This document shows positions 6,823 through 22,562 of a stretch of 24,866 nucleotides of DNA, in pieces. The stretch is taken from IMG/VR virus record IMGVR_UViG_3300009420_000083, positions 1 through 24,866 of that record; one strand, given 5' to 3'. A program made the position numbers and the translations under genes. How positions within the stretch are numbered: position 1 is the stretch's first letter; each line of letters starts with the position of its first letter. Under the pieces are notes generated by a model, which did not search any database, had not been told where the DNA came from, and saw only the letters and a program-made list of their open reading frames with translations. The DNA comes from a virus.

Positions 6823-7665
6823 CTACACAGATCTGATTAGTGTGGGTTGAAGATTAAATTCAGTCCACTCAGTAGATTTATTGATATACCCAGGTGACAA
6901 CTTACCATAACCTGCTGTATTGGATATGATTATATCCAATTCACATATCTCATTCACTGCCGGTATACTCACTATGATCTCATTCTCAGATAATATTTCA
7001 AAATTTATCTTAAATCCATAGAGTGGTTCATAATCTACCCAGTCGTCATATAACCGCGATCCAGATAGATCTGCAGACGAACTTAAGAATACACTGTTGG
7101 TGTACTGCATACTATAACCGGTTATCAATACGTTGTATGGTAGGTGTGACTTGATGGTATTGTGTGATATATGAGTTATTGTTGGTCTTGCGAATATTAC
7201 CACTGATTCAGTTAATTCATTATGTGGCATAACAGATGTAGCAGATAGTATGTATGTGTCAGAATCATTCAATGTAACAGTAGGTGTCATTGTTACGGTT
7301 GGTGTTACTGTTATTGTTGGTGTTGAGGTGGTATATGTAGATGATACGACGGGGGTAGATATTATAGGTGCGTTATTTATCTCAATAACACCATCAAATT
7401 CAGTTGATGATATATCAATCCATCCAGATAGAGGTATGTTAGCATCATTAGATGCGTTTGCATAGTACAATGTGTAAGGTGACTTGTTATTAGATATTCT
7501 CCACGAGCCTCCCACGAAGTTAGATACATTATTACTGCGTGTAATCTTAACGTCAACAGTTGTACTCGTGTACTTAACACCGGCATCAGATTGATGTGTT
7601 AAATTATATGTATCATTTATATAATCCTTACTTGATTGAGTTATATTAAGATTGTTGGTGGTCAT
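6823..7665 (-). CDS. Probable virion structural protein, 280 aa
   Basis: I do not recognise a specific family. The protein is rich in Ser, Thr, Asn and beta-branched residues with no catalytic motif. Residues about 115-140 form a low-complexity T-P-T-(I/V)-T-(V/M) repeat, followed by a probable IPT/Ig-like beta-sandwich (PTITHISHNTIKSHLPYNVLITG region). The start codon overlaps the stop of gp15 as ATGA, so it is translationally coupled to a neck gene and lies before the portal. Both facts suggest a head-tail or neck decoration role. A CATAAATA box also lies 4 nt before its ATG, inside the end of gp15. Confidence 0.6.
   Translation of the reverse strand: MTTNNLNITQSSKDYINDTYNLTHQSDAGVKYTSTTVDVKITRSNNVSNFVGGSWRISNNKSPYTLYYANASNDANIPLSGWIDISSTEFDGVIEINNAPIISTPVVSSTYTTSTPTITVTPTVTMTPTVTLNDSDTYILSATSVMPHNELTESVVIFARPTITHISHNTIKSHLPYNVLITGYSMQYTNSVFLSSSADLSGSRLYDDWVDYEPLYGFKINFEILSENEIIVSIPAVNEICELDIIISNTAGYGKLSPGYINKSTEWTEFNLQPTLIRSV
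7250..7345 (-). repeat. Short Thr-Pro repeat tract in 280-aa gene
   Basis: Near-repeats of a GTTACTGTTATTGTTGGTGT-like unit encode alternating T-P-T-V-T. It probably forms a flexible linker between two domains. Confidence 0.6.
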
Positions 7666-8339
7666 TCAATATTTATGATAGGGGTGAAATTTGAAGTTAT
7701 CTTGTATATATTACCAGCTGGATCTTCTCTAGATTTAAACAACCATGTCTTGATAGTGAAGCTAGTGTCTGCAGATACTCTATACGGTGTTGACCCATTA
7801 ATATCACTCGGATAGTTCATAGACATCGAACCGTCCCACAATACAGGTGATCTTATCTCTTGTTGTTTTTGAAGAAGATCTTCTGGTAATTTCCACGATA
7901 TTATGATGTATGGGTTGTTATGAGGTATAAAGTTACTTAAAATCTGATCCATATCTGTCTGATATCTAGTCATTATACTCATCGATAATTTAACGTCTAT
8001 CGGAACAGGAGTCATCAAGTGATCAGTCTTAGTGCTTATGACTTCACCAGCAAACGTCTCACTTCTTGTGTGATATGAACCGTATATTTTATTGAATACT
8101 CTTGAATCATCTCTACTAACACCAGTGATATTGACCGCGATTACAGGTAGTGTTAGATGTTTAGACTTATTTGTTAGATCGTGTATAACTCTCTGCTTGG
8201 GTGAGTATACATATCTAACAGCTAGTTTCTTCTGCTCCTGTCTCTGCTTGTTATACCTAGATATAACTACATCATCAAACGCGCTGATGAATTGTGTGAC
8301 TGAGTCTTTAATCTCAAAGTGAAACGATTGATTCTTCAT
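7662..8339 (-). CDS. 15: Tail sheath stabiliser/completion protein, T4 gp15-like
   Basis: The 225-residue protein matches the T4 gp15 pattern: an N-terminal segment with F-x-x-V-V-I-S-R-Y, a V-R-Y-V-Y-S-P-K-Q-R strand, a P-V-P-I-D-V-K-L-S-M-S-I-M-T-R-Y-Q-T-D-M-D-Q-I-L motif (about residues 119-142; in T4 the same place reads P-S-P-I-K-M-I-Y-E-L-S-I-F-T-R-Y-x-D-D-M), then N-P-Y-I and a final W-L-F strand. gp15 caps the tail and joins it to the neck. It is somewhat shorter than T4 gp15 (272 aa). Its ATG overlaps the TGA of a 25-codon upstream ORF (ATGA), which is itself preceded by a late promoter. Confidence 0.75.
   Translation of the reverse strand: MKNQSFHFEIKDSVTQFISAFDDVVISRYNKQRQEQKKLAVRYVYSPKQRVIHDLTNKSKHLTLPVIAVNITGVSRDDSRVFNKIYGSYHTRSETFAGEVISTKTDHLMTPVPIDVKLSMSIMTRYQTDMDQILSNFIPHNNPYIIISWKLPEDLLQKQQEIRSPVLWDGSMSMNYPSDINGSTPYRVSADTSFTIKTWLFKSREDPAGNIYKITSNFTPIINIE
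7670..7677 (-). promoter_or_regulatory. Late promoter box CATAAATA inside gp15 end
   Basis: The box lies 4 nt before the ATG of the 280-aa gene and within the last codons of the gp15-like gene (NIE stop region). It would allow separate late expression of the downstream gene. Confidence 0.45.
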
Positions 8340-8413
8340 GTGTATAATTTTATGGTAATATTAATCTCACTCCACTTATAATCTCTAAAGATTCTTCTGT
8401 CACTTATATTCAT
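8336..8413 (-). CDS. 25-aa small ORF coupled to gp15
   Basis: The frame reads MNISDRRIFRDYKWSEINIT then IKLYT and a TGA that overlaps the gp15 ATG (ATGA). A perfect late box TATAAATA with a 5-nt spacer stands before its ATG, and the 20 bases from box to start are the same as those in front of the 66-aa gene at 15458. That makes a real start site here likely; whether the peptide itself has a job is unknown. It may serve only to couple translation into gp15. Confidence 0.5.
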   Translation of the reverse strand: MNISDRRIFRDYKWSEINITIKLYT

Positions 8414-8418
8414 AATAT

Positions 8419-8426
8419 TATTTATA
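8419..8426 (-). promoter_or_regulatory. Late promoter box TATAAATA
   Basis: A perfect T4 late consensus, followed by ATATT and then the ATG at 8413. The same box, spacer and start recur at 15471-15456. Confidence 0.7.
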
Positions 8427-8429
8427 CAG

Positions 8430-8457
8430 TTGACTTCTCATTATCATGATATAATAT
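8430..8457 (+). promoter_or_regulatory. Sigma70-like promoter facing the non-coding region
   Basis: The -35 TTGACT is at 8430-8435. With a 16-bp spacer the -10 is TAATAT (8452-8457); a perfect TATAAT at 8450-8455 would need a 14-bp spacer and a second one at 8455-8460 a 19-bp spacer. The stretch TTGACTT-CTCATTAT is almost the same as in the DUF366 promoter at 11142. Transcription would start near 8464. Confidence 0.6.
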
Positions 8458-8463
8458 AATGTA

Positions 8464-8975
8464 TGATGCAAAAGTGTGTAACAGCGCTATAGTATCGCCT
8501 ACCAGCATTTTCGGTACACGAGTGTGAGCAGCGGTCAGCTCAAGAGGTAGGATTTGACTTGGCAGAGAGAACTGCTAGAAATGACAAAGCTAAGTTAAAC
8601 ACACCTGCAAGGCGGCAGATGAAAAACGGCAGATTAAGAACCTGCGCAGCACCGAACCGTGATTATTAAAACCAATCAGCGTATATTAGCGGTTTACACA
8701 AACCGGAGTTTATAGGTCGGGATTCTCCATAAAGTTAATATCTTAAACGAGTGCGCCTTATGTAAGTACTTCACACTGGAAATAACTACTAGCTCAATGT
8801 ATCCTATGTCGTTTCATAGGTGCATTGTGTCTGTAAACCATCGACTGGAGATTACTACTTATAATCATTGTATATCATTGTACTTAAGTCCTAGGAAGTT
8901 AGGGTTTTCGACTGAGTGTAATATCAATCTGTATTATATAGGAGAACTAACGGATGGTTAGTTTGTACTTGTTTG
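8464..8975 (+). ncRNA. Candidate large structured non-coding RNA
   Basis: About 520 bases carry no open frame of useful size, lie behind a strong plus-strand promoter, look GC-richer than their neighbours in the first half, and fold by eye into nested helices. P1 pairs 8474-8485 with 8589-8604: 12 bp with two AA bulges on the 3' side. Inside P1 are P2 (CCTACC 8498-8503 / GGTAGG 8546-8551), which encloses P3 (TGAGC 8525 / GCTCA 8538), and P4 (TTGGCAG 8559 / CTGCTAG 8572, loop AGAGAA). Further on are GCGCA 8644 / TGCGC 8752 enclosing CGGTTT-ACAC-AAACCG (8690-8705), TAAGTAC 8763 / GTACTTA 8880 enclosing a 13-bp hairpin with one bulged T (8795-8827), and AACTAAC-GGATG-GTTAGTT (8945-8963). G-U pairs in P4 and in the 8795 hairpin favour the plus strand. 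I do not recognise tRNA, tmRNA, RNase P RNA or a group I intron core. The 3' end is a guess. Confidence 0.55.
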
Positions 8976-8983
8976 CTTAGACG

Positions 8984-9328
8984 CTATGCGTCGTAGTATA
9001 TATAAACAACGCTATCGTGAAAGACGTGGTTGTTGTCTTTTGATGAATCTCTGATAGCTTGTATTAGCTCCTTGTCGGTGCATAAATCGTCGAGTTTGTA
9101 ACTGAATTCGATTCTCCGGAGCAGTTTGTCGTGTGTACAATTGTACGGATAGAAAATCTCGTAATTCTTCTTGACGTTCTTGTTCGTTTTGATGGTGAAG
9201 TTTATATAATAGTCATTGACATTGAACAACAGTAACTTACCTCTTCGGAGGATCTTACGATCATTCAAAACAAACCGTACATTTCTTTGTAGTACGTGCT
9301 TGCAACATGTCTCAATTTGTTCGATCAT
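8984..9328 (-). CDS. Unknown 114-aa phage protein
   Basis: Not recognised. It is basic in the first half (VLNDRKILRRGKLLLFN) and rich in Tyr, Asn and Lys, with an alternating beta-strand look in the middle and an acidic helix near the end (DKELIQAIRDSSKD). Its ATG overlaps the TGA of the upstream gene by 4 nt (ATGA), so it is the last gene of the operon that runs from QueD. Its stop codon lies in the loop of a small palindrome, GACGC-TAT-GCGTC. It faces the 3' end of the non-coding RNA candidate. Confidence 0.7.
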   Translation of the reverse strand: MIEQIETCCKHVLQRNVRFVLNDRKILRRGKLLLFNVNDYYINFTIKTNKNVKKNYEIFYPYNCTHDKLLRRIEFSYKLDDLCTDKELIQAIRDSSKDNNHVFHDSVVYIYYDA

Positions 9329-9702
9329 ATGCTCATGAACGTTACTTTTTGATCAGCTGACATTTTGTATAAAGTTTCATTGAAGTATTTCCAGAATTCA
9401 TCATTTGCTGGGATTTGAGACACTATATTGCATTGATCAACGTTGATTGTTCTATACCCTTGCATGAAGATGTCCCATGTGATTATCAAATTACGACTCG
9501 TGGGATTGTAACGAGGCGATTGCCTAGTAGGTTTGTAGTGCAAAGCTTCTCGGCCTTCACGCGAATCCAGCAACATACTACTGTTGGTACATAGCATTCT
9601 TCGGGTGGGGGATGCACCAGGCTTAGGACGTCTTCTGACGTACTTAAGCTCCAGTACATTGTCTCGAAGAAGTGCGCTTAGTGTCGGTAGTGCTACTCTC
9701 AT
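9325..9702 (-). CDS. Small phage protein, SH3-barrel (DUF2693-like) candidate
   Basis: Residues about 15-110 have the order seen in a small phage SH3-like barrel family: a basic strand with MLCTNS, then a segment ending in N-L-I-I-T-W-D-I-F-M-Q-G-Y-R-T-I-N-V-D-Q. The likeness to DUF2693-type proteins is from memory and moderate. The first 59 bp overlap the end of the GroES-like gene in another frame; no other ATG precedes the conserved part, so 9702 is kept. It is coupled by ATGA to the 114-aa gene. Confidence 0.6.
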   Translation of the reverse strand: MRVALPTLSALLRDNVLELKYVRRRPKPGASPTRRMLCTNSSMLLDSREGREALHYKPTRQSPRYNPTSRNLIITWDIFMQGYRTINVDQCNIVSQIPANDEFWKYFNETLYKMSADQKVTFMSI

Positions 9703-10105
9703 CTTGAGCTAGGTTACATGTACCAAAAATTCTCTCTTCATTCAAGAATACAGATTTGCTTATCTTACCCTTACCGGCTACAGATATGTTGCTAGCTCTC
9801 ATTCCGAATTCGTTGGGAAATATCACGGTGTCACCTGGTTTGACTTGAGTGCAGTTTGGACCCACCAACACCACTTCAGCCAAGCGCCAAGCGCGTTCGG
9901 CAGCGTTTCCAGGTATCACTATACCACCTCGAACTATATTATCTCCACCTTCATCTAGATCAGAGTAAGTCGCGAGGATGATGTCATCAAACAGTTGGTT
10001 AATTTCATATCCAACTAGCAAGGGTCCTTCTCTACTTGAATGATCTTTCAGGTCTATTAACCCAGATGATGGTTTTAATTGATTGATATCAGCGTGTTCT
10101 GTCAT
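9644..10105 (-). CDS. GroES-like co-chaperonin (T4 gp31 type)
   Basis: Residues about 35-130 match the cpn10 fold: D-D-I-I-L-A-T-Y-S-D-L-D-E-G (first strand), a flexible segment ending V-R-G-G-I-V-I-P-G-N-A that fits the mobile loop which binds GroEL, then A-E-V-V-L-V-G-P-N-C-x-x-V-K-P-G-D-T-V-I-F-P-N-E-F-G, and a final strand with F-L-N-E-E-R-I-F-G. In T4, gp31 replaces host GroES for folding of the major capsid protein; a similar job is inferred. The start at 10105 (MTEHAD) is chosen because the in-frame upstream ATG (10126) would translate a late-like box. The last 20 or so residues after FGTC are unlike cpn10 and overlap the next gene. Confidence 0.8.
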   Translation of the reverse strand: MTEHADINQLKPSSGLIDLKDHSSREGPLLVGYEINQLFDDIILATYSDLDEGGDNIVRGGIVIPGNAAERAWRLAEVVLVGPNCTQVKPGDTVIFPNEFGMRASNISVAGKGKISKSVFLNEERIFGTCNLAQDESSTTDTKRTSSRQCTGA

Positions 10106-10113
10106 GTTACTAA

Positions 10114-10121
10114 TATTTAGT
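10114..10121 (-). promoter_or_regulatory. Possible late box ACTAAATA before GroES-like gene
   Basis: Two mismatches from TATAAATA, ending 8 nt before the ATG at 10105. It lies in the short gap after the gp62-like gene. Confidence 0.4.
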
Positions 10122-10142
10122 GACATGTCTCCAGAAAGCCAG

Positions 10143-10520
10143 CTACTTCATCACGTCATTCATCTGTGATAGTTGAGTGACCTCACTGACAGATAGTTCT
10201 AATTTCTTCGCGAGTCTGACCAACCGCTCTGCAGATTCATCATCAGTGTCACTCTTAACCTTTTTAATATAATTAACTCTCATCCACTTGTGTCTAGCCA
10301 CTACATTATGCAACAACTTGTAATGCATTCTCTTGTCATCAAGCAGCACAGGATGTAACCAATTAGCGGTACTATTAACCACTTCAGCGTGTCGAGGTGA
10401 TATCATGCTGATCCATCTGTTGATCATGAAAGGTACATACTCCGACTCGTTATCTGTGTTCTCCAGAAACTTACGCTTCTTGGAGAACACAATATCGTTG
10501 AGATGGTCAAATATATTCAC
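10143..10520 (-). CDS. 62: Clamp-loader small subunit, T4 gp62-like
   Basis: The 125-residue protein has the N-terminal layout of marine T4-like gp62: M-N-I-F-D-H-L-N-D-I, then Y-V-P-F-M-I-N-R-W-I-S-M (residues 28-39), a helical centre, and a basic stretch (WMRVNYIKKVKSD). gp62 works with gp44 to load the sliding clamp gp45 on DNA. It is shorter than T4 gp62 (187 aa), as is usual in marine relatives. Its start overlaps the DUF366 stop, so both come from the promoter at 11142. gp44 is not in this window. Confidence 0.6.
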   Translation of the reverse strand: MNIFDHLNDIVFSKKRKFLENTDNESEYVPFMINRWISMISPRHAEVVNSTANWLHPVLLDDKRMHYKLLHNVVARHKWMRVNYIKKVKSDTDDESAERLVRLAKKLELSVSEVTQLSQMNDVMK

Positions 10521-11107
10521 TTAGATATGATCTTGGTAGTCGCGATGAATATGTCATCATTCATGGTGTAGAACATACTGATGACATCGTTCATGAAACC
10601 CCTTGCATCCTCATCACTTAGATTAGTAGAGAACGCATGACTCGGTGCTTTCCTACCAGCTGTTATGTTGATGCCAGTATGACCTAGAGCAGCTCCACAC
10701 TTGACATGTGTTATGCTGACACTACATTTACCCTTGGGTTGTATGATTCCATGTTGCTCGTGCTCGGCATGCACAATCAAGTCATCACCATCCAACTCTA
10801 TAGGTTTCTTGAGATACTTAGATCCAAGTATATTGGCGATACCAGTGTTCAGCAAGCGTTGAAATGCTATAGCTCCGAATGGCTCTAATCCTGGAATCTC
10901 CCATAAAAAGTTAACAGCATCATCACTATAAATAAATTCATTTTTTAAAACATCCTCTTGATCGATCATTCCTTCTGTCTCTACTAGCATAGGAGATCTA
11001 AAAGCAATTATATTGCCTATAGGTAGCACTTTGTTCCGGAAAAATTGATAAGCGAACCGGTTGTGCAGCAAGTTACCATCATACATGTTTATATCTTCAA
11101 CTATCAT
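10517..11107 (-). CDS. DUF366-family protein
   Basis: The protein follows the DUF366 family known mainly from archaea: Y-D-G-x-x-L-x-x-x-x-A-Y-x-F-F near the start, I-I-A-F-R-S-P-M-x-V-x-x-E-x-M-I-D-x-E-D (residues about 33-53), I-Y-S-D-D-A-x-x-F, and a C-terminal K-C-S-V-S-I-T-H-V-K-C-G-A-A-L-G-H-T-G-I-N-I-T. The biochemical role of the family is not something I can state with certainty. Its place downstream of QueD and QueE genes suggests a step in 7-deazaguanine metabolism, which is inference. A strong sigma70-like promoter stands 7 nt before its ATG, so it heads its own early unit with the gp62-like gene behind it. Confidence 0.75.
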   Translation of the reverse strand: MIVEDINMYDGNLLHNRFAYQFFRNKVLPIGNIIAFRSPMLVETEGMIDQEDVLKNEFIYSDDAVNFLWEIPGLEPFGAIAFQRLLNTGIANILGSKYLKKPIELDGDDLIVHAEHEQHGIIQPKGKCSVSITHVKCGAALGHTGINITAGRKAPSHAFSTNLSDEDARGFMNDVISMFYTMNDDIFIATTKIISK

Positions 11108-12905: not shown

Positions 12906-13394
12906 TTATATATTAATCTCCCATGGAAACTCCAGCCACTCCTTACCGCAATGTTCGCCTACATAGTCTGGTTTGAATGAACTATGATCCTTACAATATA
13001 GAGTAGCTGTCTTGAACTCCACTACACCTCTATGAAACTTACCAGATAGTCGATTCACTAACCCGCTCATGGTCACTCCTTCATCACACAGATCATCCAC
13101 AATTAAGATATTCTTACCTGATATACCTTTCATCAGATCATATAACACATCTTGATACATAACCCCATGATAATTTTCCGGGTCTCTTATACGTTGATCT
13201 TCATCATAGCTATGATATCCATGCACAAGAACTTCGCGTATGCTTAAGTTGTGTGACAGTATGGTAGCTGGAACAAGACCACCTCTACTCAATCCTATAA
13301 TAGTGTCTATCTGTATCTCATCATGAGATAATTGCTGCACGATGATATCGCATTGAGATTGAACATCAGACCAACTGATAGATCTCTTCGTCAT
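12906..13394 (-). CDS. Purine-type phosphoribosyltransferase
   Basis: The PRPP-binding loop is N-I-L-I-V-D-D-L-C-D-E-G-V-T-M-S at residues 95-110, and the N-terminal G-L-S-R-G-G-L-V-P-A (34-43) is the phosphate-contacting loop of xanthine/guanine/hypoxanthine-type enzymes. It would join a free base to PRPP to give a nucleotide. The length (162 aa) is close to bacterial Gpt. I choose the ATG at 13394, which overlaps the QueE stop (ATGA), over an ATG at 13415 that would lengthen the overlap. The coupling to QueE suggests that its base could be a 7-deazaguanine; that is inference. Confidence 0.85.
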   Translation of the reverse strand: MTKRSISWSDVQSQCDIIVQQLSHDEIQIDTIIGLSRGGLVPATILSHNLSIREVLVHGYHSYDEDQRIRDPENYHGVMYQDVLYDLMKGISGKNILIVDDLCDEGVTMSGLVNRLSGKFHRGVVEFKTATLYCKDHSSFKPDYVGEHCGKEWLEFPWEINI

Positions 13395-14149
13395 ACACCA
13401 GTTGTCTGATCCCATGCACTGACGTGAAGTCTCGTGAGTCCAGTATAACCATGCTTCTTACCCATCTCCATACAAAACTTTGTTCGTTCGTGATAATTCT
13501 CTTGCTTATCTAAGCCAGGCATCATTAACACTTTCTTCGCAGGTATATTGAATGGCTCTACGAAATCATTAATTATTTCCTGTACACACTCCTCTGTACT
13601 GATGACAAACTTAAACCAGTAGTTAGGGTGAGACATGATTCGATTTAAAGCTTCTGGTTTGATCCTACGATCTTTGCTCATCCCACTGTTAGCTAACTTA
13701 ACACTGCAGTTGATTTGATCTAATTGATCAAACATATCATCTTCAATATAAATAGTACCATTGGTCTCAATCTCGTTGTATAAGTTAGCACTATTAAACT
13801 GATGATAAAACCAGTTGATAAAGCTTGAGATGGATCGCTGATTCTTAGGTATGGTCGGCTCACCACCTGTCCATATAAGATTAACTCTACCTTGACATAT
13901 CCACTCGAATATACCCTCATCCATCCATTTATCTACAAGATATTGAAAAGGTTTTTCTAAACCCTTTCTCCATACTGCTTCTGTATCACACCACCATGTA
14001 GCCTTACCCTCCTTCATGAGGCTACCATCCGGCCCACCGCACATTAGATTACACGCTTTTAGTCTGATGAAGTACGCTGGCACTCCGCTAGTGTTACCTT
14101 CACCCTGAACAGAGTAGAAGTCTTCTGATATATTAAGTGTTTCAGTCAT
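13391..14149 (-). CDS. queE: 7-carboxy-7-deazaguanine synthase, QueE-like radical SAM
   Basis: The N-terminus S-E-D-F-Y-S-V-Q-G-E-G-x-x-x-G-V-P-A-Y-F-I-R-L (8-30) is the QueE signature. QueE converts 6-carboxytetrahydropterin to 7-carboxy-7-deazaguanine with an iron-sulphur cluster and SAM. The cluster cysteines are C33, C37 and C54: C-N-L-M-C, then 16 residues, then C-D-T, so the usual C-x3-C-x2-C is opened by an insertion of 14 residues. The W-T-G-G-E-P motif (SAM binding) and I-E-T-N-G-T follow. It stands 7 nt after the 87-aa gene and is coupled to the phosphoribosyltransferase. Confidence 0.9.
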   Translation of the reverse strand: MTETLNISEDFYSVQGEGNTSGVPAYFIRLKACNLMCGGPDGSLMKEGKATWWCDTEAVWRKGLEKPFQYLVDKWMDEGIFEWICQGRVNLIWTGGEPTIPKNQRSISSFINWFYHQFNSANLYNEIETNGTIYIEDDMFDQLDQINCSVKLANSGMSKDRRIKPEALNRIMSHPNYWFKFVISTEECVQEIINDFVEPFNIPAKKVLMMPGLDKQENYHERTKFCMEMGKKHGYTGLTRLHVSAWDQTTGV

Positions 14150-14422: not shown

Positions 14423-14962
14423 TTAAATTCCTAAATGTGAGGTTTTCTCAATCCATGTACCTTCAGATTCTACATCAACTGATTTTTCTACATTACTAGA
14501 TTTTTCTACATTACTAGATTTACTCTTATCACACTTATAAATCGCAGAGTTATCCTGATGTTCAAATACCTCAACCTTGACGCATCTGCATCTCAACTGC
14601 GTTATTATCTGTACAAAGTTATCAGCTGCACTATGGCACCACTCAGCAAACTTCTCTATACCGACTCCATTCATAACTCGAAGATCACATATACCATCCC
14701 TTGCCAGACTCTTAAATTTATCAAGATGAGGATCTTTCTCTGAGATACACATGGTATGATCGAATTGATTCTTCAACAGCTTTTTTAGCTCCTTAAGTCC
14801 TCCGAAATCAACAACCCAATCATTTGAATCTAGTTCTTTAGCTTGAAACCAAAATTTAGCTTTTAATTGATATCCGTGTATATATTTACAGTGGCTGGTT
14901 GCGTTGGGTTGTCTGAACGCACAACTACCTAGCTCGATTAATTTAGTACTGATGAATGCCAT
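14423..14962 (-). CDS. queD: 6-carboxytetrahydropterin synthase-like (QueD/PTPS family)
   Basis: The order S-C-A-F-R-Q-P-x-A-T-S-H-C-x-Y-I-H-G-Y-x-L (13-33), W-V-V-D-F-G-G-L-K (49-57), F-D-H-T (67-70) and V-E-V-F-E (130-134) matches the PTPS/QueD fold. QueD turns dihydroneopterin triphosphate into 6-carboxytetrahydropterin, the substrate of QueE. The usual H-G-H zinc motif is H-G-Y here, and the catalytic Cys is at C25. The C-terminus (from about 146) has a low-complexity tail with K-S-S-N-V-E-K repeated twice. It is the first gene of the operon; a sigma70-like promoter ends 6 nt before its ATG. Confidence 0.8.
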   Translation of the reverse strand: MAFISTKLIELGSCAFRQPNATSHCKYIHGYQLKAKFWFQAKELDSNDWVVDFGGLKELKKLLKNQFDHTMCISEKDPHLDKFKSLARDGICDLRVMNGVGIEKFAEWCHSAADNFVQIITQLRCRCVKVEVFEHQDNSAIYKCDKSKSSNVEKSSNVEKSVDVESEGTWIEKTSHLGI

Positions 14963-15257: not shown

Positions 15258-15458
15258 CTATCTTTCTTCCTCTAACTTATCTATTGCTTTATTAATAAGT
15301 CTAGCTTGATCCGTTGACATTACTACTGTATTACCATGATCATCCTTAATACTAACCTCATCATCATTGATAACAAGCTCAGGGCAACAAGCTTTTCCGC
15401 CACATAACACGACCGCTCTACCGTTCATTCTTAAATCGTCATTTTGCATTTTCTTCAT
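15258..15458 (-). CDS. Unknown 66-aa phage protein
   Basis: No known function. It has V-V-L-C-G-G-K-A-C-C-P-E-L-V-I (17-31), so three cysteines in a tight cluster, followed by a basic/acidic beta segment and a helical end (DQARLINKAIDKLEEER). I have seen similar small Cys-bearing proteins in marine T4-like phages, but no job is known. A perfect late box (15471-15464) sits 5 nt before its ATG. Confidence 0.7.
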   Translation of the reverse strand: MKKMQNDDLRMNGRAVVLCGGKACCPELVINDDEVSIKDDHGNTVVMSTDQARLINKAIDKLEEER

Positions 15459-15463
15459 AATAT

Positions 15464-15471
15464 TATTTATA
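15464..15471 (-). promoter_or_regulatory. Late promoter box TATAAATA
   Basis: Perfect consensus, 5-nt spacer (ATATT) to the ATG at 15458. The TAA of the upstream nucleotidyltransferase gene (15469-15467) lies inside the box. Confidence 0.7.
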
Positions 15472-21140: not shown

Positions 21141-21714
21141 CAAACATCAGACTCTTTTCCTTTATACTATTAAAATACACCTCTGATAAGTAATTCAGAT
21201 TATATTGCTTAGAGAATTTTTTAATCCTAGAGAAGTTAAAACTTGAAACACTATGATCTAGCAACCTCTGATTTATTAACATCAATTCATCCTGCAGATT
21301 GTATCTCGCTCTGCTACGCTCAAACTCAGCAAATGATATATCAGTCTTATATACAAATGTAGGTATCAACAATCTGACTCGGTCGATTATACACTTAATA
21401 AAACTTCTCATATTATCATTGTCTATCATCTCCTGAAACCAGTCTACATCCAAATCATACACATTAAAGAATATCACCGCCTTACTAGAGCTCTCTCTGT
21501 TGAGAATACAATCACACATACTCTTTATTATATGATGATAAAATACACGCTTAGTGTCAGCTGATCTGACATTCAAACCATTATCCAGCAAGCCAAACAT
21601 GTGTAACTCATCAATTATACGCACTCTATTCTGCTTGACTATATCCGCAAAATTAATCAAACAAAATGAGCTAACCGGTAATTCGAAACACCTAACAGCT
21701 GATATATTTTTCAT
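21136..21714 (-). CDS. Conserved-looking 192-aa phage protein, unknown function
   Basis: Not assigned. The segment V-K-Q-N-R-V-R-I-I-D-E-L-H-M-F-G-L-L (26-43) and K-A-V-I-F-F-N-V-Y-D-L-D (78-89) give a strand-helix layout like a nucleotide-binding or nuclease core, but no Walker motif is present. Its first 23 bases overlap the end of the nuclease gene. Its place between a nuclease and UvsY/UvsW hints at DNA metabolism; that is context only. Confidence 0.65.
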   Translation of the reverse strand: MKNISAVRCFELPVSSFCLINFADIVKQNRVRIIDELHMFGLLDNGLNVRSADTKRVFYHHIIKSMCDCILNRESSSKAVIFFNVYDLDVDWFQEMIDNDNMRSFIKCIIDRVRLLIPTFVYKTDISFAEFERSRARYNLQDELMLINQRLLDHSVSSFNFSRIKKFSKQYNLNYLSEVYFNSIKEKSLMFV

Positions 21715-22195
21715 TCATTCTGAGTAGTACGCTCTTATTATTCTCAAAGAAGTTGTTCATTGGCACCACATAATAACTATTATAATTACAATAGCAACCT
21801 GAATGACTTACAGATTTCCACATACTTTTGTTAAATACGACGTATGAACCTTTATTATTAATCTTGAATATCAGGAACCATAATCTAAAGTCTACCTCAG
21901 CCTGTGAGATCCAATCATCTAGCTGCTTATTACTACTGAACAGTCCATGAAATGAAAACGACTTATAGCACTTACATTCAATCTTAAAATTAGATAGCTC
22001 ATCTGGTACAATTATATCTCCATCATATAATAACTTCTGCGAATCAGATAACTTATTATATCTATATGCATTTTTTCCTCCAGTGAATGCTCCGGATGTA
22101 GGAACTCTCTCGAAGTTCAAATCGAATACTAGTGATAAGTGATCAGCTACCTGTCTTTCATAACCATTACCTTTTGACTTTTGTCTAGATGTCAT
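21692..22195 (-). CDS. PD-(D/E)XK nuclease, Holliday-junction-resolvase-like
   Basis: The N-terminus K-G-N-G-Y-E-R-Q-V-A-D-H-L supplies the first acidic residue, followed by V-P-T-S-G-A-F-T-G-G-K-N, then D-G-D-I-I-V-P (catalytic D) and K-I-E-C-K-C-Y-K (E-x-K). This order fits PD-(D/E)XK nucleases such as archaeal-type resolvases. It probably cuts branched DNA during recombination or packaging. I choose the ATG at 22195 (MTSRQKSKGNG) because a TATAAT stands 7 nt upstream and the longer ORF (from 22240) has no family match and overlaps the upstream gene. Confidence 0.75.
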   Translation of the reverse strand: MTSRQKSKGNGYERQVADHLSLVFDLNFERVPTSGAFTGGKNAYRYNKLSDSQKLLYDGDIIVPDELSNFKIECKCYKSFSFHGLFSSNKQLDDWISQAEVDFRLWFLIFKINNKGSYVVFNKSMWKSVSHSGCYCNYNSYYVVPMNNFFENNKSVLLRMNEKYISC

Positions 22196-22202
22196 ATTAT
22201 CT

Positions 22203-22208
22203 ATTATA
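22203..22208 (-). promoter_or_regulatory. TATAAT -10 element before nuclease gene
   Basis: A perfect TATAAT with 7 nt to the ATG, the same as in the early promoters at 11115 and 14969, but the -35 at 16 bp spacing (TGCAAT) is poor. Confidence 0.4.
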
Positions 22209-22211
22209 ACA

Positions 22212-22562
22212 TTACATCGTTCCAATTGCACTTCTATCACTAGGCCCGGTCATTCCAGTCTCTCTAGTGTGTAGCATTGGAAACGCCTCATTAGGGATTC
22301 TAGGCTTAACCTTCCTGTTACTCTTTTTCTTATCTTTATCTTTATCCTTTTTAGATCTCTTATCACGTCTAACCTCAACTGAACCTAATGCATGCGGAAC
22401 TCGAGCGTCGCCAGTAGCATATGTATCAGTATTTTGAAAGCTACCTCCTTGACCTCCAGTAGCCGCTTGACTACCTGCAAACACACTAGATGCCATCATA
22501 TCTTCTTCTAGCATACTGTTGAATAAAAATTTAAATCGATTTAGACCTTGACTTCTTGACAT
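22212..22562 (-). CDS. Small basic phage protein, possibly virion-associated
   Basis: The 116-residue protein has a Gly/Ala/Ser-rich centre with D-T-Y-A-T-G-D-A-R-V-P-H-A-L-G (46-60), then a Lys-rich run (SKKDKDKDKKKSNRKVK). The T-G-D-A-R-V-P type motif with a following basic stretch appears in small proteins of marine T4-like phages. Function unknown; a DNA- or head-linked role is a guess. Lies 16 bp upstream of the nuclease ATG. Confidence 0.6.
   Translation of the reverse strand: MSRSQGLNRFKFLFNSMLEEDMMASSVFAGSQAATGGQGGSFQNTDTYATGDARVPHALGSVEVRRDKRSKKDKDKDKKKSNRKVKPRIPNEAFPMLHTRETGMTGPSDRSAIGTM

Follow-up and report, generated by a model that had tools for sequence, protein, structure and literature searches.

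The 24.9 kb virus record analyzed here is that of a T4-like phage; the window, meaning the whole stretch of DNA under analysis, is 24,866 nt long. Between its genes for the tail sheath stabilizer (gp15) and a small protein designated c1 lies a region (8340-8983) with no credible gene, and the question raised by this locus is what it encodes. The original prediction had noted about 570 bases lacking a credible gene, a reading upheld by the stop codons in every frame of the homologues, and had proposed that they encode, on the plus strand, a large structured RNA of a new kind with a promoter of its own. Homologues, covariation and the absence of an Rfam match support that central claim, and sequence comparison identifies 8461-8860 (+) as a conserved RNA gene without coding capacity, shared by a clade of marine T4-like phages that have not been cultured. 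The main features of the locus are:

7662..8339 (-): gp15, tail sheath stabilizer (phrog_227, E 2.9e-19)
8419..8426 (-): T4-type late promoter motif TATAAATA, facing gp15 and outside the RNA, part of the 16-mer TATAAATAATATTATG
8430..8460 (+): putative promoter, with TTGACT at 8430-8435 and overlapping TATAAT copies at 8450-8455 and 8455-8460
8461..8860 (+): structured non-coding RNA, about 400 nt, from homologue searches (nhmmer), alignment and pair counts
8984..9328 (-): c1, 114 aa, convergent with the RNA; its relatives adjoin the RNA in most homologous loci

The phage and its genes

Other products of the window are a portal protein (phrog_213, E 1.5e-108), a helicase of the UvsW type and a GroES-like co-chaperonin. 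Cyanophages make up most of the nearest isolates by gp15, portal and helicase (Kyanoviridae), which also include Methylophilales and Pelagibacter phages. Protein identity between the window and these isolates is about 26–33%, so the phage is far from any cultured one. The c1 protein gave no match in Pfam and PHROG searches. The co-chaperonin gene lies at 9644-10126 (-) (Cpn10, E 4e-5), and its relatives (cluster c3) occur near the RNA in most homologous loci.

Several other genes were observed in the window. A putative phage PDDEXK endonuclease (21692-22240, -; PF24608, E 7.3e-25) adjoins the region of the UvsW-like helicase gene. A gene of the QueD type, like 6-pyruvoyl tetrahydropterin synthase (14423-14962, -), a DUF366 gene (10517-11107, -) and a 252-aa ORF (13391-14149, -) that is QueE-like by reading, with no match in Pfam, together suggest a 7-deazaguanine (preQ0) pathway. 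A tandem array at 330-1197 has a 78 bp unit, with about 6.6 copies at 88% in its first block, and its plus strand has an open frame for a repetitive protein.

Extent, coding capacity and known families

The scans yielded 39 distinct cores, and after removal of L110 (a chance match) and L120 (incomplete) there remained 37 distinct RNA sequences, including that of the window, all from IMG/VR contigs of uncultured T4-like phages. The homologues were matched by nhmmer with E-values of 1e-70 to 1e-108, and mean pairwise identity among the RNA sequences is 66%. The conserved core covers 8464-8854 (about 390 nt), and conservation ends near 8860 without continuing to 8975. The RNA is large, as predicted, but its extent was overestimated, the conserved molecule being about 400 nt and not about 550. 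A coding region was rejected on two grounds: stops occur in all six frames of every homologue (at least two per frame), and of the 243 alignment gaps relative to the window, 204 have lengths not divisible by three.

No match to Rfam 15 was found in the window at gathering score, and searching the RNA region at E-values up to 10 gave only two chance snoRNA matches; nine homologue loci gave none at E up to 1. ARAGORN predicted no tRNA or tmRNA in the window. No earlier description of the RNA was found in the open-licence literature; a 2017 survey of 224 motifs lies outside that scope and may already list it.

Secondary structure and covariation

A mutual-information scan of the alignment, which assumed no fold, ranked helix pairs at the top and also revealed pairs that cannot be nested. 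The resulting model consists of P1 to P13, P15 and the pseudoknots PK1, PK2 and PK3, with 91 pairs. The fold has about 17 helices, three of them pseudoknots, and the single-stranded joiners between them are nearly invariant. Its parts, in order along the RNA, are:

8465..8496 (+): P1, 8465-8469/8492-8496, enclosing P2; double changes in 5/5 pairs, 90.9% paired
8473-8477/8484-8488 (+): P2 hairpin; 94.6% paired
8498-8503/8546-8551 (+): P3, spanning 8498..8551 and enclosing P4 and P5; 96.8% paired, compensatory changes
8505-8513/8519-8525 (+): P4; 94.1% paired, compensatory changes
8526-8529/8538-8541 (+): P5; 98.6% paired, compensatory changes
8534..8558 (+): PK1, P5 loop 8534-8536 with 8556-8558, the strand before P6; 3/3 double changes, 96.4% paired
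8559..8578 (+): P6, 8559-8565/8572-8578; 97.7% paired, one pair C-G/U-A
8604..8619 (+): P7 hairpin, 8605-8607/8616-8618 (8604-8619 in some members); 4/4 double changes
8609..8759 (+): PK2, P7 loop 8609-8614 with 8754-8759; 6/6 double changes
8629..8645 (+): P8 hairpin, 8629-8632/8642-8645; 93.2% paired, 3/4 double changes
8657..8720 (+): PK3, 8657-8659 with P12 loop 8718-8720; 98.2% paired, UA/CG and GC/AU/UA exchanges
8660..8678 (+): P9 hairpin, 8660-8664/8674-8678; 5/5 double changes
8683..8741 (+): three-way junction of P10, P11 and P12; invariant GUUUA...AGGU and AUAAA
8683-8690/8734-8741 (+): P10; 99.7% paired, seven pairs with double changes
8691-8694/8701-8704 (+): P11; 99.3% paired, two pairs with double changes
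8705-8708/8725-8728 (+): P12; 100% paired, three pairs with double changes
8742..8751 (+): P13 hairpin, 8742-8744/8749-8751; 96.3% paired
8795..8827 (+): P15 hairpin, 8795-8801/8821-8827 and 8803-8808/8815-8820; 7/13 double changes

The joiner AAGCUAAAUUAAAC, 3' of P6, is nearly invariant, and GCACCGAA, 3' of P8, is invariant. The apical pairs of P15 vary in length. Two further elements are probable: a P14 hairpin (z 4.4) and a lengthened P15 (z 3.4).

Cells with double changes number 466 in the alignment, as against 131 in shuffles (0/500 shuffles as high), and double changes are found in 64 of the 91 pairs, compared with 40 in shuffles. Standard pairs fill 91.9% of cells (alignment A2), against 37–39% with slid partners, a control in which the model has an advantage because it was derived from these very sequences. 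For this reason an own-versus-other test was added, in which the pairing of a strand with the partner from its own genome is compared with its pairing with partners from other genomes. The z values were 11.2 for P3, 9.0 for PK2, 5.9 for PK3 and 3.4 for PK1, with a control at -0.7, and are optimistic since the permutations ignore sequence relatedness. The range of matched pairs in the alignment is the stronger argument for the fold. It is well illustrated by PK2, where AAGGCG/CGCCUU in the window is replaced by GAGUGA/UCACUC (L101), GGGACG/CGUCCC (L089) or GAAGUGA/UCACUUC (L095); all six of its pairs have double changes despite some misaligned rows, and none of 2000 permutations matched the own-versus-other result.

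Among the paired cells there are 373 G-U but only 51 A-C, and this asymmetry identifies the plus-strand RNA as the constrained molecule, in agreement with the strand first assigned from G-U pairs. By contrast, 8464-8975 folds with a minimum free energy of -124.2, compared with -124.9 for shuffles (z 0.12, plus strand), and single-sequence folding of the minus strand gave no signal (z -0.61). A folding energy no better than that of shuffled sequence is an outcome the original prediction had itself named as counting against the structure. Single-sequence energy is a weak test, however, and is outweighed by the covariation: the structure is not above chance by energy alone but clearly is by evolution.

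Much of the fold that had been drawn by eye is recovered. CCTACC/GGTAGG (P3), TGAGC/GCTCA (P5) and TTGGCAG/CTGCTAG (P6) are all present with compensatory changes, as is the stem at 8795-8827 (P15), where some pairs have them. The outer architecture, made of two enclosing helices, is wrong. The window sequence allows the 12 bp helix 8474-8485/8589-8604, but this helix lacks covariation (own 3.54, other 3.55, z -0.1), and its 5' strand forms the local hairpin P2 instead. A 7 bp closure at 8763/8880 is not general, its 3' strand lying beyond the conserved region. Neither the pseudoknots, three in number, nor the 3' direct repeats had been noticed.

Direct repeats near the 3' end

Two direct repeats, R1 and R2, flank P15 near the 3' end of the RNA:

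8775..8790 (+): R1, ACUGGAAAUAACUACU, partly within the probable P14; co-varies with R2
8844..8859 (+): R2, ACUGGAGAUUACUACU; co-varies with R1

Within genomes the two agree at 10.6 of 14 positions, compared with 7.7 between genomes (z 12.5, 0/5000). In L129, for example, CUAGA is found in both R1 and R2, where most members have CUGGA. Pairing of R1 with R2, or of both with one common internal strand, was not supported, and neither, overall, were mini-hairpins 3' of each repeat. No further good copies were found in four contigs. The agreement may reflect either a shared, co-evolving partner or recombination that keeps the copies alike.

Promoter and transcript ends

A TTGACT/TATAAT-type promoter facing into the RNA was predicted and is present as a motif, with TTGACT starting at 8430, where 8429 had been implied. 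In the window the spacer between the hexamers is 14 or 19 nt, depending on the TATAAT copy, which is off the sigma-70 optimum. In most homologues, RTTGAYT and TATAAT-like motifs are found at a near-constant distance upstream of P1, so the transcript probably starts at P1. Elsewhere the strict promoter motif is infrequent: each of seven contigs had between 0 and 2 matches. The promoter type suggests synthesis of the RNA early in infection. No conserved terminator was seen across the homologues. The exact 16-mer that contains the late promoter motif occurs at 8411-8426 and at 15456-15471 (-), ahead of two minus-strand genes; with up to three mismatches there are nine matches in the window, compared with 1.6 expected.

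Distribution and genomic position

About two dozen of the best 80 gp15 relatives in IMG/VR have an RNA homologue beside gp15. These RNA homologues mostly show 67–79% nucleotide identity, and the gp15 proteins next door about 53–68%. Two extra IMG/VR pattern scans added L128, L129 and L130, while two further scans returned only known members and chance matches, so the family looks well sampled in IMG/VR. A pattern scan of GTDB species genomes gave three matches, none of them a homologue by nhmmer, and DNA similarity searches of phage and plasmid records gave either nothing or chance matches of at most 48 nt. A covariance model of a 128 nt core detected six RNA-bearing contigs, each with a single copy, and gave no match in five RNA-less contigs with gp15 (68–230 kb) or in the complete isolates Melnitz-3, S-PRM1 and P-TIM68. 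A match in another complete isolate, HTVC008M (E 0.74), was rejected as it falls inside a coding gene.

On the gp15 tree, the RNA is present in most deep lineages of the group and absent from two clades, and the starred branches require at least three changes in its presence or absence. Other genes occupy its place in the RNA-less gp15 loci that were mapped. In L048 (1-828), gp15 falls inside an RNA-bearing clade (support 100/99), an ORF fills the site and the RNA was not found, which is likely to represent loss or displacement.

Wherever the contig of a homologue also holds gp15, the RNA lies 31–1667 bp from it, and it is divergent from gp15 in all cases but one. The exception, L136 (3602-3991, on the same contig as L055), has the RNA alone inverted, with the order c3, c2, c1, gp15 unchanged and a recognizable promoter motif kept in the inverted copy. 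Inserted genes separate the RNA from gp15 in some genomes and from c1 in others. In the usual arrangement no gene on the same strand follows the RNA, and, contrary to what is expected of a cis-regulatory leader, the neighboring genes share the strand of the RNA only in L136.

Possible function

Fold and promoter motif are kept despite inversion and inserted genes, which argues for action in trans, and the RNA is probably an independently transcribed, trans-acting structured molecule. Counting against this, its fixed place beside gp15 would also fit a local role, the promoter spacer is off the sigma-70 optimum, and a conserved terminator was not seen. In the proposed scheme the RNA would have a TTGAYT/TATAAT-type promoter of its own, used by a host-type RNA polymerase, probably at an early stage of infection; gp15 would be served by the divergent late promoter, and the RNA would act in trans as a folded molecule. 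Its pseudoknotted core and the paired R1/R2 sites may bind a protein machine of host or phage, redirecting or titrating it. Such a role as RNP ligand or decoy is the most likely mechanism, a weaker inference than trans action itself and one put forward tentatively. A share of the probability goes to mechanisms other than those considered here. The co-variation of R1 and R2 suggests two sites for one partner, but their agreement could also stem from recombination. More speculatively, the RNA may be the first representative of a new class of RNA machines in phages, with a mechanism new to phage RNAs, in which a compact triple-pseudoknot RNA would either dock a host or phage complex through twin co-evolving 3' sites or catalyze a reaction.

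Invariant unpaired joiners could instead be tertiary contacts through which RNA copies assemble into a particle that would hold or sequester some content of the infected cell, by analogy with GOLLD and ROOL, which share the same broad setting (PMC12286853). This RNA-only assembly is unlikely, given a size below that of ROOL (659 nt in one example) and GOLLD (over 800 nt), the lack of an Rfam relation, and the absence of any conserved self-complementary loop among the features seen. Rather less probable is a base-pairing regulator or sponge, with joiners or R1/R2 pairing to host or phage RNAs. The two co-varying repeats and long conserved unpaired stretches such as AAGCUAAAUUAAAC would suit this role, but the elaborate conserved tertiary fold exceeds the needs of an sRNA, R1 and R2 vary much between genomes, and no partner strand inside the RNA and no target were found.

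A cis element for gp15 or the flanking late operon, acting as antisense to readthrough mRNA, as a terminator or as a leader, would account for the fixed distance from gp15 (31–1667 bp), and the RNA would be antisense to any c1-gp15 readthrough transcript. A cis role is nonetheless improbable: the G-U excess means that the plus-strand fold is under selection, L136 carries the RNA in inverted orientation, several genomes have genes inserted between the RNA and gp15, and gp15 relatives without the RNA exist. Also quite improbable is a ribozyme or packaging RNA, whose core would cleave or ligate RNA or serve the packaging motor like phi29 pRNA; three pseudoknots and invariant joiners do resemble catalytic cores, and the site lies among structural genes, yet there is no Rfam ribozyme or pRNA match, and the RNA does not adjoin terminase genes in the loci seen. 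That there is no RNA gene at all, and that the region is a degraded coding sequence or an intergenic spacer whose structure arose by chance, fits the ordinary folding energy but is scarcely tenable, being contradicted by the covariation, with strand-specific compensatory changes, pseudoknots, stops in all frames and out-of-frame gaps.

The locus adds a covariation-backed family with three pseudoknots to the large structured phage RNAs, which are few and poorly understood. The family is marked by a fixed genomic address beside gp15 and by its own promoter motif, and has been kept across deep marine T4-like lineages despite little spare DNA, with some relatives lacking it. A length of about 400 nt brings in vitro folding, pull-downs and cryo-EM of the RNA within reach, and a search for its partner has a specific starting point in the co-varying R1/R2.

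Comparison with known structured RNAs

The 6S RNA, about 180 nt in length, forms an extended irregular hairpin. It resembles the present RNA by analogy only, as a folded molecule whose mode of action is to occupy a host machine; the RNA described here differs in being multi-domain, with three pseudoknots and no Rfam match. Closer in length are tmRNA and RNase P RNA, which at 350–400 nt also have several pseudoknots. The present RNA differs from both in lacking 5'-3' end pairing in the covariation model and an Rfam match, and it is not recognized as a tmRNA by either ARAGORN or Rfam.

The manA and wcaG motifs are structured RNAs of marine metagenomes that also occur in T4-like cyanophages, and are thought to be cis-regulatory and tied to metabolic genes (PMC2864571). 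Compared with these, the RNA of the window is larger, is usually without a downstream gene on the same strand, and has no Rfam match.

GOLLD and ROOL are large, ornate, pseudoknotted RNAs of phages and prophages whose function is not known; a ROOL example is 659 nt long, and many GOLLD exceed 800 nt (PMC12286853). The present RNA resembles them as a large, stand-alone, highly structured phage RNA with pseudoknots. It differs in its size of about 400 nt, under a size criterion of about 600 nt, and in always lying beside a T4-like gp15 in contigs that hold this gene; GOLLD and ROOL often lie near tRNA islands, and no tRNA was found in the window. That it would be unlike either was foreseen, and neither Rfam model matches the window, the RNA region or the homologue loci. 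With a covarying structure on one strand and no coding capacity, it falls within the broad kind of large structured phage ncRNA, and it is filed there as a new family, a member of neither GOLLD nor ROOL.
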